A stretch of DNA of 64,000 nt. Origin: Woeseiaceae bacterium (GTDB lineage Bacteria; Pseudomonadota; Gammaproteobacteria; Steroidobacterales; Woeseiaceae). How positions within the stretch are numbered: the stretch's first letter is position 1; every line of letters begins with the position of its first letter. This document shows positions 19,232 to 25,125 of the stretch, piece by piece. Position numbers and translations under genes: made by a program. The stretch is from NCBI GenBank assembly GCA_024640345.1, contig JAHEFD010000003.1, forward strand, positions 1 through 64,000, given 5' to 3'. A model generated the notes under the pieces. That model worked only from the letters and a program-made list of their open reading frames with translations. It did not search any database and was not told the DNA's origin.

Positions 19232-20041
19232 TCATTGACCTCGTCCTGCAATGAGCATGTCGCGGATGAGCTCAGACGGGTCCGTCGCGCGCATCAATGC
19301 CGTGCCAACCAGCGCAATGTCGTAACCCCAGGCTGCCACGTTTGCCGCATCTTTCGCTGTGTGCTGACCGCTTTCCGCCACGCAGGTGATTCCCTCGGGC
19401 AGAAGCAGGCCGAAATTCTTCAGTCGAACCGGATCGACAGACAACGTACGAAGGTTTCTCGTATTCACGCCGAGCAGAAATTTCTGCCTGGCCGCCTGCT
19501 CACGGTACCTGACCCGCTGCAATACATGCACCGACCGCTCCAGGTCGATCTCCTCGAACGATTCCAGCAAGACGAAAAGATCATGCTCGAACGCGCAGTC
19601 GAGCATGCTCATCAGTTTTGCGTCATCGAGCATTGCTGCAATCAGCAAGACACCGCTGGCGCCCGCCGCCTTTGCTTCCAGGACCTGGAGCGGATCGACA
19701 AGGAAATCCTTTCGCATCACCGGGATCTCGTTCGGCGAAACGGCCGCAACGACTTCTTCCAGGTGCGAGAGGGAGCCGTCAAACCTGTCAGGCTCGGTTA
19801 ATACCGATATCGCCGCCGCACCACCAGCGACATAACTGGCGGCGCGCTGCCGACGATCGACCTGGCCTGTCGCCAGTTCACCCTCGGCTGGCGACCGGTC
19901 CTTGATCTCTGCAATCAGGTCGAACCCTGAAAGCCGCAGCGGGTAGGAAGGTCGATCGAGTTCGACGGACGTAAAGGATCGCTTTGCGCTGGCGGCTCGC
20001 GCAGCGCTCGACTCGGCCATTTGTCCGAGAAAATTACTCAT
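19232..20041 (-). CDS. trpC: Indole-3-glycerol phosphate synthase
   Basis: 269 residues, TIM barrel. It closes the indole ring with loss of CO2. The motifs FDLIAEIKDRSPAEG (catalytic Lys), AAAISVLTEPDRFDG, PVMRKDFLVDP (catalytic Lys) and LGVNTRNLRTLSVD are all present. The C-terminal phosphate loop is CVAESGQHTA and ALVGTALMRA. The ATG at 20041 starts MSNFLGQMA and overlaps the trpD stop by 8 bp; the longer frame to 20212 lies inside trpD and is rejected. Confidence 0.97.
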   Translation of the reverse strand: MSNFLGQMAESSAARAASAKRSFTSVELDRPSYPLRLSGFDLIAEIKDRSPAEGELATGQVDRRQRAASYVAGGAAAISVLTEPDRFDGSLSHLEEVVAAVSPNEIPVMRKDFLVDPLQVLEAKAAGASGVLLIAAMLDDAKLMSMLDCAFEHDLFVLLESFEEIDLERSVHVLQRVRYREQAARQKFLLGVNTRNLRTLSVDPVRLKNFGLLLPEGITCVAESGQHTAKDAANVAAWGYDIALVGTALMRATDPSELIRDMLIAGRGQ

Positions 20042-21065
20042 CGTCGGCGAAATGACCTCTGAATTTCTCGAGGAATGCCGCGCCCTTGCCACTGTCGATG
20101 GCGTCTTCTGCCATCGCAACACCCTCTGCCAGGTTCCGGGCAAGGCCAACCACTTCCAGAACGAGCGACGTACCCATGACCAAGGCATCCCTGTGCGCAC
20201 CCGTGTCCTCACCGGTCAGGACGCGGACAAGCTCTGTCGCGTTGTGGGCCGCATCGGCACCGCGCAGTTCCTCCGGCGCGCATCGGGTCATTCCATAGTC
20301 TTCCGGCGTGCGCCTCGTTTCCTGAACCGCGCCGGGACGCACGTCATAGAGAACGAACGCTCCTGCCGGCGTCGCCTCGTCCCATCCCGGCTCACCATGG
20401 ACCACGAAAGCGCGCTCTATCGGCATGCCGGAAAGCGTATCTGCCATCAGGCGGGCGGCCTCCGGACTGAAAGCGCCGATGAGCTGGTATGGCGGCGCGG
20501 CCGGATTCGTCAGCGGTCCCAGAAGGTTGAAGACGGTTCGTACGCCCAGGGCGCCGCGCACCGGCATGATCGCCTTCATCGCAGGGTGGTATGCCGGCGC
20601 AAAGAGAAATGTGAAATTCAGTGCCTCAAGGCTTGCGATACTTTGCCGCTCATCGAGCGGCACCGGCATTCCCAGGCACTCGAGCAGATCGGCGCTGCCG
20701 GACTTGCTCGAGATGGAGCGATTGCCATGCTTGACCACCCTCGCTCCGGCAGCCGCCGCGAGAAGACCTGCCCCGGTGGACAGATTCAGGCTGCCGGATC
20801 CGTCGCCGCCTGTGCCTACAGTGTCCACGGTTGGTGCGCCCTCGGGAATGGCCGGGTGCAGGGCGAGCTCGCGCATTGCCGTCGCGAAGCCGCGGATCTC
20901 CCCGGCGGTTTCTCCCTTCGCTCGTAATGCCGCGAGTAAAGCGCCGGCGAGCGCAGGTGCCATCTCGCCGCTGGCAAGCTCACGCATCAGGTCGGCAGCG
21001 GCCGACTCGGTCAGCGCTTTGCCGTTTAACAGCGAGTCCAGCATGGTTGAATTGTCGTCAGTCAT
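20034..21065 (-). CDS. trpD: Anthranilate phosphoribosyltransferase
   Basis: 343 residues. It transfers phosphoribose from PRPP to anthranilate. The PRPP-binding TVDTVGTGGDGSGSLNLSTG and VVKHGNRSISSKSGSADLLE are diagnostic, and VFNLLGPLTNPA is conserved. The N-terminal helical bundle typical of TrpD (ADLMRELASGEMAPALAGAL) is intact. It is not fused to the amidotransferase, unlike in enterics. It overlaps trpG by 8 bp upstream and trpC by 8 bp downstream. Confidence 0.98.
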   Translation of the reverse strand: MTDDNSTMLDSLLNGKALTESAAADLMRELASGEMAPALAGALLAALRAKGETAGEIRGFATAMRELALHPAIPEGAPTVDTVGTGGDGSGSLNLSTGAGLLAAAAGARVVKHGNRSISSKSGSADLLECLGMPVPLDERQSIASLEALNFTFLFAPAYHPAMKAIMPVRGALGVRTVFNLLGPLTNPAAPPYQLIGAFSPEAARLMADTLSGMPIERAFVVHGEPGWDEATPAGAFVLYDVRPGAVQETRRTPEDYGMTRCAPEELRGADAAHNATELVRVLTGEDTGAHRDALVMGTSLVLEVVGLARNLAEGVAMAEDAIDSGKGAAFLEKFRGHFADDE

Positions 21066-21645
21066 CCATCGTCATCCGCATGAAATTGTTCATCAACTTG
21101 TCGCCCTCCGGTGTCAACACACTCTCCGGGTGAAACTGCACGCCATGAAGCGGCAACGTACGGTGGCGGACACCCATTATTTCGCCGCGCTTCGTTCTCG
21201 CCGTGACAATAAGCTCTTCCGGCAACGATTGATCGGTGGCACATAAGGAATGGTAACGGCCCGCCTCGAATGGCAGGGACATGCCGTCAAACAGCGCGCT
21301 GTTGTCATGGTTAACCATCGAGGTCTTGCCATGCATCAGTCGTTCCGCACGAACGATGTCCCCTCCGTAATGATGCACCAGGCTCTGGTGTCCGAGGCAA
21401 ACACCCAGCATCGGCACTTTCCCCGCGAAAGCGTCGATCATCTCCAGCGAAACGCCTGCGTCCTCAGGACGTCCCGGACCTGGCGAAATGACGAGGTGAG
21501 TTGCGTCCAGCGCCAGCGCCTCCCCGATGCTGATCTCGTCGTTTCGATAGACAAGCACTTCTGCACCATTCGCTGCAAAAGCCTGCACAAGGTTATAGGT
21601 AAATGAATCGTAATTATCGATCAGCAAAATTCGAATCTTGCTCAT
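21058..21645 (-). CDS. trpG: Anthranilate synthase glutamine amidotransferase component
   Basis: 195 residues, class I glutamine amidotransferase. The nucleophile is Cys83 in MLGVCLGHQSLVHHYGG, and the His/Glu of the triad lie in GVQFHPESVLTPEG. The N-terminus ILLIDNYDSFTYNLVQ is typical of TrpG/PabA. It supplies ammonia to TrpE; TrpG proteins of this type often also serve PabB in folate synthesis, and no second copy is visible here. The start overlaps the trpE stop by four bases. Confidence 0.96.
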   Translation of the reverse strand: MSKIRILLIDNYDSFTYNLVQAFAANGAEVLVYRNDEISIGEALALDATHLVISPGPGRPEDAGVSLEMIDAFAGKVPMLGVCLGHQSLVHHYGGDIVRAERLMHGKTSMVNHDNSALFDGMSLPFEAGRYHSLCATDQSLPEELIVTARTKRGEIMGVRHRTLPLHGVQFHPESVLTPEGDKLMNNFMRMTMDD

Positions 21646-23027: not shown

Positions 23028-23106
23028 CTTCTTCCTGTTTAGCTCCGGCCAACATGGCCCTCGTTCCTGCACTCTGCGACAACGCCGCTCTGGTAAACAC
23101 ATGCAC

Positions 23107-23145
23107 AAAAAAACCCGTCTTCACTTTCGTGGTGGAGACGGGTTT
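23107..23145 (-). terminator. trp attenuator (Rho-independent terminator)
   Basis: On the minus strand AAACCCGTCT (23145-23136) pairs with AGACGGGTTT (23120-23111), with an inner CAC-GAAA-GTG stem in the loop and seven Ts in a row ending the hairpin. It lies 26 bases after the trpL stop and about 80 bases before trpE. Together with the Trp-rich leader peptide this is a ribosome-mediated transcription attenuator. Confidence 0.9.
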
Positions 23146-23171
23146 CGGTGTCTGTTCGATTTGCTTAAACG

Positions 23172-23240
23172 CTAGCCGGCCGCCCGCTCCTTTTTGGGCA
23201 ACCACCACCAGCTCTGATTCGTGTTCTGCTTGGCGCTCAT
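23172..23240 (-). CDS. trpL: trp operon leader peptide
   Basis: A 22-codon frame beginning MSAKQNTNQS with three consecutive Trp codons at residues 11-13 (positions 23202-23210), then LPKKERAAG and a TAG. It stops 26 bases before the attenuator hairpin. Ribosome stalling at the three Trp codons under tryptophan starvation would favour read-through into trpE. The predicted promoter -10 box ends seven bases before the ATG, so the peptide may be translated from a leaderless or nearly leaderless transcript; no Shine-Dalgarno sequence is placed correctly. Confidence 0.88.
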   Translation of the reverse strand: MSAKQNTNQSWWWLPKKERAAG

Positions 23241-23247
23241 GTGTCCG

Positions 23248-23276
23248 AGTATCCCTGCGGCTACTCCGGTCGTCAA
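23248..23276 (-). promoter_or_regulatory. trp operon promoter
   Basis: TTGACG (23276-23271), a 17-bp spacer and GATACT (23253-23248) on the minus strand: five of six and four of six consensus matches with optimal spacing. It lies in the 46-bp gap between the SLC13-type transporter stop and trpL. Initiation six to eight bases after the -10 box would fall at or next to the trpL start codon. Confidence 0.7.
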
Positions 23277-23286
23277 GCCGAAACGG

Positions 23287-25125
23287 CTACCCCAACTCAT
23301 AAAGCACCGGCAACAGAAACGAAAAACCGAGCCACATCAGGATCGTGAGCGGTATCCCGACGCGCAGGAAATCTGAAAACTTGTAACCACCGGCACTGAG
23401 GATGAGGAGATTGGTCTGATAGCCGAAGGGTGTCGCGAAACTCATGTTGGCGCCGAAAAGTACCGCCAGCACAAACGGGATTGGATCGGCACCCAGCCGC
23501 CCTGCAATGGCGATCGCGATAGGCGTACCAATTACCGCCGCGGCGTTGTTAGACACGACATTGGTCAACAACGTCATGATCAATATGAAAGCGCTGAGAA
23601 TGATCGGTATCGGAAAATCCGCAACCATGCTGACAAAACCTACGGCGAGATAGTCCGCCATGCCGGTGCTCATCAATGCCTTGCCAAGCGCGAGACTGGT
23701 CACGATGATCAGGATGACCTGCGTCGACAGGGCACTTCCCGCGTCTCGCCACGTCAGGCAATCGAACGCAATCATCAGGCCGACGCCGATCAGCGAGCTG
23801 ACCGAGATCGGCATGATGCCGAACGCCGCGGCAAGAATAACGAACGCCATAATGCCAAGGGCACGATTTGCCCTGTGCGTATGGGGCAGGTTCGTCGTGC
23901 CATCGAGAACAAGCATGCTGCCGCTGGATTTCAACGTTTCGATGGCATCACTGGTGCCCTGTACGAGTAACACGTCGCCCGCCCGAAGCCGGATTGAACT
24001 CAGGTCCCCGGTCACCTGCGAACTCGGCGCACGTGCACGATGGATTGCCAGTGGCAGCAGGCCGTAACTGGCACTGAAGCGGGCCGCTGCGAGGCTGCGC
24101 AGGTGAAGCGGTGACCCGCGCGTTACGACAACCTCTGCAAGCTGCTGGCCCTCGGCCTGCAGTGGCGTGTCCTCGTCAATCGGATGCTCACTGTCGGAAA
24201 CATTGTAGAGCGTCGCACCCAGCAGCATTTCGTAATGCTTCAGGTTTTCCGGCGAATCTTTTACAAAAAGCCTGTCGCCCGGCAGCAGGGTCACGGACGG
24301 CAGCTTGGCGAGGAACAGCGATTCACTGCGTTGAATCTTGTCCACGCGCATTTGACCGCTGGTCTTCGCAAGTACCTCGGACAAAGTCTTCCCGGCAGCG
24401 AAACAGTCCTCTGTAATGAAAAGCTGACTTGCGAAAACGCGCGGCGTTGTATCAGCGAGTGGCGGTACGCGATCGGGCAGCATTTTGGGTGCGACGATCC
24501 AGAGGAAGAGAATCGCGACTCCCCCCACTATGGCAACAGGCAGGACGAAGTCGAACATGCCGAAGCTCTTCAGACCCATATCGGCGGCAATACCAACGAC
24601 CAGCAAGTTCGTCGAAGTGCCGATCGTTGTCGACATCCCGCCGATGATCGTGGCCAGTCCCATTGGCAGCATGACGCCGGAGACCGGGAACTTGACCCGC
24701 AGCGACACGCTGACAAGTATTGGCATAAGCAACACGACTATTGGCGTGTTGTTCATGAATGCGCTGAGCACGGCGCCTGCAAATAATGTGACCAGCAGCG
24801 CGAGCAGCGGTCGGGTAGACCATGCATGTCCGACAACCACCGCAAGCGGCTGCAGGGAACCCGTCGTTTCCAGCGCTTTGCCAACCATCATCAGCGCGCA
24901 GATCGTAATCAGCGCCTCGTTGCCAAATCCTGCAAAGAATTGGGCGGGCCCCAGCACCACGCCGTCGGCCTCATAGGGAAACAGCTGAAAACCGGTGACG
25001 AGGATGATCAGAATAACGAGGCTGGAGGTCTCCAGGGGCAACCAGTCACGCGTAAACAGGAAAAGCGCAACTGCGGTTAGCAGAAGGACGGCGACTCCGT
25101 GAATGTCTGGCGTAACTGGCGGCAA
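23287..25125 (-). CDS. SLC13/DASS-family transporter with two RCK_C domains
   Basis: 612 residues. Two blocks of transmembrane helices (about 10-215 and 415-610) flank a cytoplasmic region with two tandem TrkA-C/RCK_C-type domains (about 225-310 and 325-405; LLPGDRLFVKD, RLRAGDVLLVQGT). The family signatures SAFMNNTPIVVLLMPI and GTSTNLLVVG in the first half and NVVSNNAAAVIGTPIAIAIA and ATPFGYQTNLLI in the second are the paired Na+/substrate-binding motifs. The substrate is uncertain: dicarboxylate, sulfate or another anion. Translation appears to begin at a TTG with a weak GAGAG upstream. It lies just upstream of the trp promoter on the same strand. Confidence 0.9.
   Translation of the reverse strand: MPPVTPDIHGVAVLLLTAVALFLFTRDWLPLETSSLVILIILVTGFQLFPYEADGVVLGPAQFFAGFGNEALITICALMMVGKALETTGSLQPLAVVVGHAWSTRPLLALLVTLFAGAVLSAFMNNTPIVVLLMPILVSVSLRVKFPVSGVMLPMGLATIIGGMSTTIGTSTNLLVVGIAADMGLKSFGMFDFVLPVAIVGGVAILFLWIVAPKMLPDRVPPLADTTPRVFASQLFITEDCFAAGKTLSEVLAKTSGQMRVDKIQRSESLFLAKLPSVTLLPGDRLFVKDSPENLKHYEMLLGATLYNVSDSEHPIDEDTPLQAEGQQLAEVVVTRGSPLHLRSLAAARFSASYGLLPLAIHRARAPSSQVTGDLSSIRLRAGDVLLVQGTSDAIETLKSSGSMLVLDGTTNLPHTHRANRALGIMAFVILAAAFGIMPISVSSLIGVGLMIAFDCLTWRDAGSALSTQVILIIVTSLALGKALMSTGMADYLAVGFVSMVADFPIPIILSAFILIMTLLTNVVSNNAAAVIGTPIAIAIAGRLGADPIPFVLAVLFGANMSFATPFGYQTNLLILSAGGYKFSDFLRVGIPLTILMWLGFSFLLPVLYELG

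Follow-up and report, generated by a model that had tools for sequence, protein, structure and literature searches.

The window analysed here is a stretch of 64,000 nucleotides from a Woeseiaceae bacterium (Gammaproteobacteria, order Steroidobacterales). Its minus strand carries a short open reading frame with tandem Trp codons upstream of trp biosynthesis genes, an intrinsic terminator between this frame (trpL) and trpE, and the genes trpE, trpG, trpD and trpC in this order, with 79 bases separating the end of the terminator U-tract from the start of trpE (Table 1). The best NCBIfam match of trpE is trpE_most, with 485.4 bits and thus under the cut-off of 517.7, and the closest TrpE among the matches listed belongs to a Woeseia MAG (74% identity). 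The TrpE of the order is a short form (461 aa). Matches to it from the rest of the class, among those listed, are only about 43–50% identical over most of the length, and judging from these alignments the trpE of the order may have a separate history.

Table 1. The trp attenuator and operon of the window, from the promoter downstream
Feature	Position	Strand	Basis or remark
-35 box TTGACG	23271..23276	-	promoter scan
Spacer between -35 and -10 boxes	17 bp	-	
-10 box GATACT	23248..23253	-	promoter scan
Gap from -10 box to ATG, seven bases	23241..23247	-	without Shine-Dalgarno
Predicted transcript start	23240 or 23241	-	predicted from promoter position
trpL start codon ATG	23240-23238	-	
trpL ORF, leader peptide MSAKQNTNQSWWWLPKKERAAG, 22 codons	23172..23240	-	ORF translation and relatives
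Three consecutive Trp control codons TGGTGGTGG	23202..23210	-	read in trpL
1:2 hairpin, 23204-23196 paired with 23185-23177	23177..23204	-	folding only
Antiterminator left arm GGAGCGGG	23183..23190	-	pairs with 23142-23134; folding and covariation
trpL stop codon	23174-23172	-	
Segment 3 CCCGTCTCC, common to antiterminator and terminator	23134..23142	-	folding and covariation
Intrinsic terminator, stem 23142-23114 and seven Us 23113-23107	23107..23142	-	folding and covariation
trpE, anthranilate synthase component I, 461 aa	21642..23027	-	AGGA ahead
trpG-type glutamine amidotransferase	21058..21645	-	trpG_papA above its cut-off
trpD	20034..21062	-	profile match above its cut-off
trpC, start not refined	19232..20017	-	best NCBIfam matches TrpC, below their cut-offs

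An initial annotation of this DNA had placed a promoter, a leader peptide with three Trp codons and a seven-U terminator within 170 bp, with the -10 box ending seven bases before the trpL ATG, and the coordinates obtained here agree with it to the base. It had also described the attenuator as very compact. This is only partly accurate, as it applies to the 5' UTR, which is predicted to be missing, and not to the leader itself: the distance from the ATG to the end of the U-tract is 134 nt, compared to a median of 129 nt (range 118–165) among 141 leaders of the order. The promoter scan returned one site in 651 bp on both strands compared with a mean of 0.2 in shuffled sequences, and the pattern TTGAC-N18-20-ATACT-N6-8-ATG has a single match in the 3.66-Mb assembly, at trpL, compared to none for the reversed control. 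Together with the recurrence of the promoter across the order, these counts led us to reject a chance promoter. As to a general excess of leaderless-type genes, the looser pattern TTGAC-N18-20-ANNNT-N6-8-ATG yielded 305 matches summed over 7 genomes of the genus compared with 234 for the reversed control, a weak excess.

The spacing between promoter and start codon was compared across the order by locating promoters ahead of Trp-rich leaders solely from their resemblance to TTGACA/TATAAT, with no use of the place of the start codon. We examined 157 genomes from 13 families, of which 141 from 12 families passed the filters for leader, T-run and promoter; the selection of leaders required a Trp-Trp or Trp-X-Trp pair. 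The family was represented by 82 of 88 genomes with matches, six being left out because no trpE start in their listed matches could be used, and the addition of two less complete members of the genus brought this set to 84. Outside the family, 73 of 141 genomes were hand-picked to spread over the families of the order, and two of a further 15 genomes, both of family f12, were left out as they gave distant matches only. From the class outside the order we took 60 of 228 genomes (219 with a match), mostly one per family and from among the better matches, in each case with 600 nt ahead of the point where the trpE alignment begins, except for one genome at a contig end, which contributed 476 bases in total. 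Named contigs were inspected for leaders and left out of the counts.

The initial annotation had suggested the conservation of the seven-base spacing as a check on its proposal that trpL is leaderless, and the comparison supports the proposal strongly. The first in-frame start codon lies 6–10 nt past the -10 box in 140 of the 141 leaders, a count taken over related genomes that do not represent independent events, with 33, 75, 19, 9 and 4 leaders having gaps of 6, 7, 8, 9 and 10 nt, respectively (6–8 nt in 127 leaders). The one exception (L162) was scored at 64 nt, where another promoter-like site won, and TTGACG/GATACT with a gap of 8 nt is present there as well. By raw count, a start codon falls at 6–10 nt in the Trp frame of 141 of 141 leaders, compared with 0 and 6 of 141 for the two remaining frames. 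Gap length, frame and the base at -1 are not built into the promoter scoring; conservation of the boxes partly is, as the scoring rewards boxes similar to TTGACA and TATAAT.

The start codon is ATG in 136 leaders and GTG in 5, the latter 6–7 nt from the -10 box (L189–L191, L144 and L209). All three members of family f14 (L189–L191) use GTG at 6 nt, and their -10 boxes are degenerate (AACAAT, AAGAAT and AATGAT). With gaps of 6–8 nt, the first transcribed base is expected from the promoter position to be the start codon or its neighbour, and the 13 leaders with gaps of 9–10 nt would have two or three untranslated bases at the 5' end. Transcription that starts on a purine usually has a pyrimidine at -1. 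Relative to the start codon, a pyrimidine occupies this position in 117 of 140 leaders, compared to 89 leaders at -2 and 69 at -4, which fits the start codon's purine being the first transcribed base. Among the leaders with a 9-nt gap, the -1 pyrimidine is found in only 2 of 9.

No leader among the 141 has a Shine-Dalgarno core before an in-frame start within the predicted transcript, and the trpL of the window has no 4-mer core at the corresponding place. For comparison, a core precedes 9 of 24 further ORFs that we selected from the window, with unverified starts, and occurs in 8.7% of random 10-mers. One might suppose that the attenuator is real and nevertheless leadered, the main transcript starting further upstream and the promoter adjoining the ATG playing a minor part. 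The transporter gene (23287-25125, same strand) ends only 46 bp before the trpL ATG with no terminator-like site listed between the two, and an in-frame ATG at 23300 would lengthen the leader ORF; such upstream in-frame ATGs are found in 6 of the 10 loci of the genus (L002–L011), including that of the window. Against this scenario, they lie at varying distances and recur in only 3 of 23 further loci of the family (L012–L034), and a Shine-Dalgarno core 5–14 nt upstream of the first start is found in a single leader, the other 140 lacking it whatever the transcript. Moreover, the best conserved upstream blocks are the -35 and -10 boxes, the distance between the -10 box and the start codon is maintained across 12 families, and GTG replaces ATG at the same place. 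We therefore consider a leadered transcript improbable and a transcript starting at or next to the trpL start codon much the better explanation.

The -10 box has the form G/A/C-ATACT in 124 of the 141 leaders. Among the leaders in which the spacer measures 17 bp and the gap 7 nt, TTGAC is present in 62 of 62, a figure to which the scoring contributes by favouring such boxes. The information content in this set amounts to 2 bits for TTGAC, 1.6–2 bits for ATACT and 1.8–2 bits for the start codon, compared with values under 0.5 bit in most of the spacer and ahead of the -35 box; a few flanking positions reach 0.8–1.2 bits. Of the 157 upstream regions from the order, 133 have the strict motif, compared with 0 of 60 from elsewhere in the class, which shows the motif to be particular to the order; this class count is no demonstration of leadered trpL genes elsewhere, as the filter left 48 of the 60 genomes with no Trp-leader candidate. 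The other 12 have Trp-rich leader candidates, several of which are probably spurious. In L284, L301 and L309 the ATG lies 30, 51 and 29 nt, respectively, after the best-scoring promoter, and these leaders look leadered.

The filters dropped 16 of the 157 order genomes. By eye, 11 of them have a similar promoter with a start codon 7–10 nt behind it, and failed the Trp-pair or the T-run filter. In the remaining five the strict promoter is missing. One locus is truncated where its contig ends, no leader is seen in two genomes of family f10 and in one of family f5, and in a genome of family f8 the leader follows a different promoter.

The leader RNA of the window folds as a 1:2 hairpin and a 3:4 terminator. 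When the left arm GGAGCGGG is covered, the remaining RNA folds as the terminator, whereas the freed region, taken as far as the terminator's right arm, folds as an antiterminator with -16.7 kcal/mol. The antiterminator and the terminator are mutually exclusive, and in the folding the former is uncovered by stalling at the Trp codons. A simple terminator scan does not list the trpL terminator, which folding does find, probably because of a mismatch within the stem. An Rfam search of 10 kb around the attenuator up to E = 1 returned only Trp_leader and the snoRNA model sR32. The score for Trp_leader (RF00513) is 23.6 bits, under the gathering score of 41, and a T-box or other listed leader RNA was dismissed for lack of an Rfam match.

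Covariation was assessed in 54 of 79 distinct leaders of the family, hand-picked with omission of near-duplicates and of several longer or divergent leaders, a choice that may favour the structure. The covariation score is 0.156 for the antiterminator compared to 0.116 in shuffles, and 0.287 for the terminator compared to 0.204, and none of 500 shuffles reaches either score. Each structure also outscores all six slid registers, a comparison in which it is favoured by having been derived from the same sequences. The antiterminator contains two double exchanges, G-C to A-U at columns 51/110 in 11 sequences and C-G to U-A at columns 59/101 in 7 sequences; this number of doubly changed pairs is no excess over shuffles, 489 of 500 of which reach 2. 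The outermost named pair of the antiterminator is unpaired in 49 of 54 leaders. In the order as a whole, the antiterminator ranks among the top 5 against 100 dinucleotide shuffles in only 72 of 141 leaders, and in 0 of 8 leaders of families f6, f7, f9 and f11. From these alignments and foldings, support for the antiterminator is good in the family and weaker in distant families.

These results lead us to interpret the element with high confidence as a ribosome-mediated trp attenuator with a leaderless trpL. A sigma-70-type RNA polymerase would start at, or about 1–3 nt from, the A of the trpL AUG, and a ribosome would load on the bare 5' AUG with no Shine-Dalgarno sequence. When charged tRNA-Trp is scarce, the ribosome would stall at UGG-UGG-UGG and mask segment 1, so that GGAGCGGG could pair with CCCGUCUCC, which forms the terminator's left half; the antiterminator so formed would allow transcription of trpEGDC. 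When Trp is plentiful, a ribosome at the stop codon would mask segment 2, the 3:4 terminator would form, and termination would free a leader RNA of about 134 nt. The promoter, its spacing, the missing Shine-Dalgarno sequence, the Trp codons and the two exclusive hairpins are evident from the DNA and from the related leaders; the exact 5' end, the leaderless initiation and the response of the attenuator to Trp we infer from them. Taken together, the element is real and well conserved, very probably leaderless, and classical in its predicted mechanism.

Leaderless initiation is generally weak in gammaproteobacteria. It is conceivable, then, that transcription starts at the AUG and trpL is barely translated, the element working mostly as a constitutive terminator, or giving rise to a short trans-acting RNA, in place of a Trp sensor. 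A precedent for the latter exists in Sinorhizobium meliloti, where the released leader rnTrpL and the peptide act in trans according to the accessible parts of that study (PMC7298713). On the other hand, at least two adjacent Trp codons in 118 of the 141 leaders (a Trp pair being a selection criterion) along with a covarying antiterminator are the signature of a translated sensor, and Ribo-seq indicates that the leaderless trpL of S. meliloti is translated, as stated in the available portion of the report (PMC10117765). We regard a barely translated trpL as highly improbable and favour its translation as part of the attenuator.

The sole match to the Trp_repressor family in the genome from which the window derives (92% complete) fits YerC/YecD with 58.5 bits (cut-off 42.2), and the same match scores only 31.6 bits as TrpR, for which the cut-off is 67.25. 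Control by TrpR was rejected for this genome, its homologue being YerC/YecD-like. The protein, TrpR-related and of the YerC/YecD family, is encoded at L349 (G000:C85:21900-22500). With no TrpR and only this homologue found, attenuation is probably the main control of the trp operon. The trp attenuator of Escherichia coli resembles the element described here in its tandem Trp codons, its 1:2, 2:3 and 3:4 hairpins, its U-tract and its position before trpE. In E. coli, trpL is preceded by a 5' UTR that contains a Shine-Dalgarno sequence, and TrpR controls the operon, whereas here there is no Shine-Dalgarno sequence and TrpR was not found.

The original work on the S. meliloti trp attenuator is reportedly that of Bae and Crawford in 1990, and Canestrari in 2020 is said to have treated mycobacterial polycysteine leaderless ORFs. 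The initial annotation regarded leaderless initiation as undescribed for trp operons, which is contradicted by the S. meliloti rnTrpL, whose 5' end is the ATG of trpL according to the accessible parts of the same study (PMC7298713). Judging from these parts, S. meliloti trpLE(G) shares with the window a leaderless trpL (predicted here) and attenuation upstream of trpE, and is not subject to repression (PMC7298713). The two differ in that S. meliloti, an alphaproteobacterium, has trpE(G) and a leader peptide of 14 aa, compared to separate trpE and trpG and 22 aa in the gammaproteobacterial window. In addition, so far as these sources extend, the 5' end is established in S. meliloti and predicted here, and activity in trans is reported for S. 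meliloti only. The leuL, metL and thrL leader peptides of Streptomyces lividans are, in the part of that report at hand, also amino-acid leader peptides without a 5' UTR, as predicted for trpL here, in another phylum and for other amino acids; several S. lividans leaders have no classical terminator, and two trpL are listed as well (PMC8079986).

The element in the window is best classed as another probable case of leaderless trp attenuation. Leaderless trp attenuation itself is already known, documented so far for one alphaproteobacterium in the sources available to us, and the new part is the conservation of the probably leaderless arrangement, with its fixed gap between -10 box and start codon, across one gammaproteobacterial order. 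In the literature searched, which consisted mostly of papers outside subscription, we found no description of a leaderless trpL in Gammaproteobacteria. The occurrence of this arrangement in 12 families of the order, with both ATG and GTG starts, points to a stable design rather than an oddity of one species, and provides many natural examples in which to test how leaderless initiation is timed with respect to RNA polymerase. We further speculate that across the order attenuation alone, read by ribosomes starting on a bare 5' AUG or GUG, governs the trp operon, that the switch senses the availability of fMet-tRNA and of initiation-competent 70S ribosomes in addition to the charging of tRNA-Trp, and that the released leaderless leader RNA acts in trans like that of S. 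meliloti, a combination that we consider unlikely.

Two further observations concern the surroundings of the leaders. In L229 and in four named contigs (L039, L042, L043 and L045), the Trp leader lacks the TTGAC/ATACT promoter. A TATTGTA block starting about 35–39 nt upstream of the ATG is common to the five, and three of them also have an ATAGGCT block, which suggests another type of promoter. The stretch between the terminator and trpE (23028-23106 in the window) differs in length across the genus, and in L004, L005, L006 and L008 it contains similar-looking palindromic blocks around ATGCCGCGACA...GGAGCGGCG, which by their appearance are perhaps REP-like repeats.
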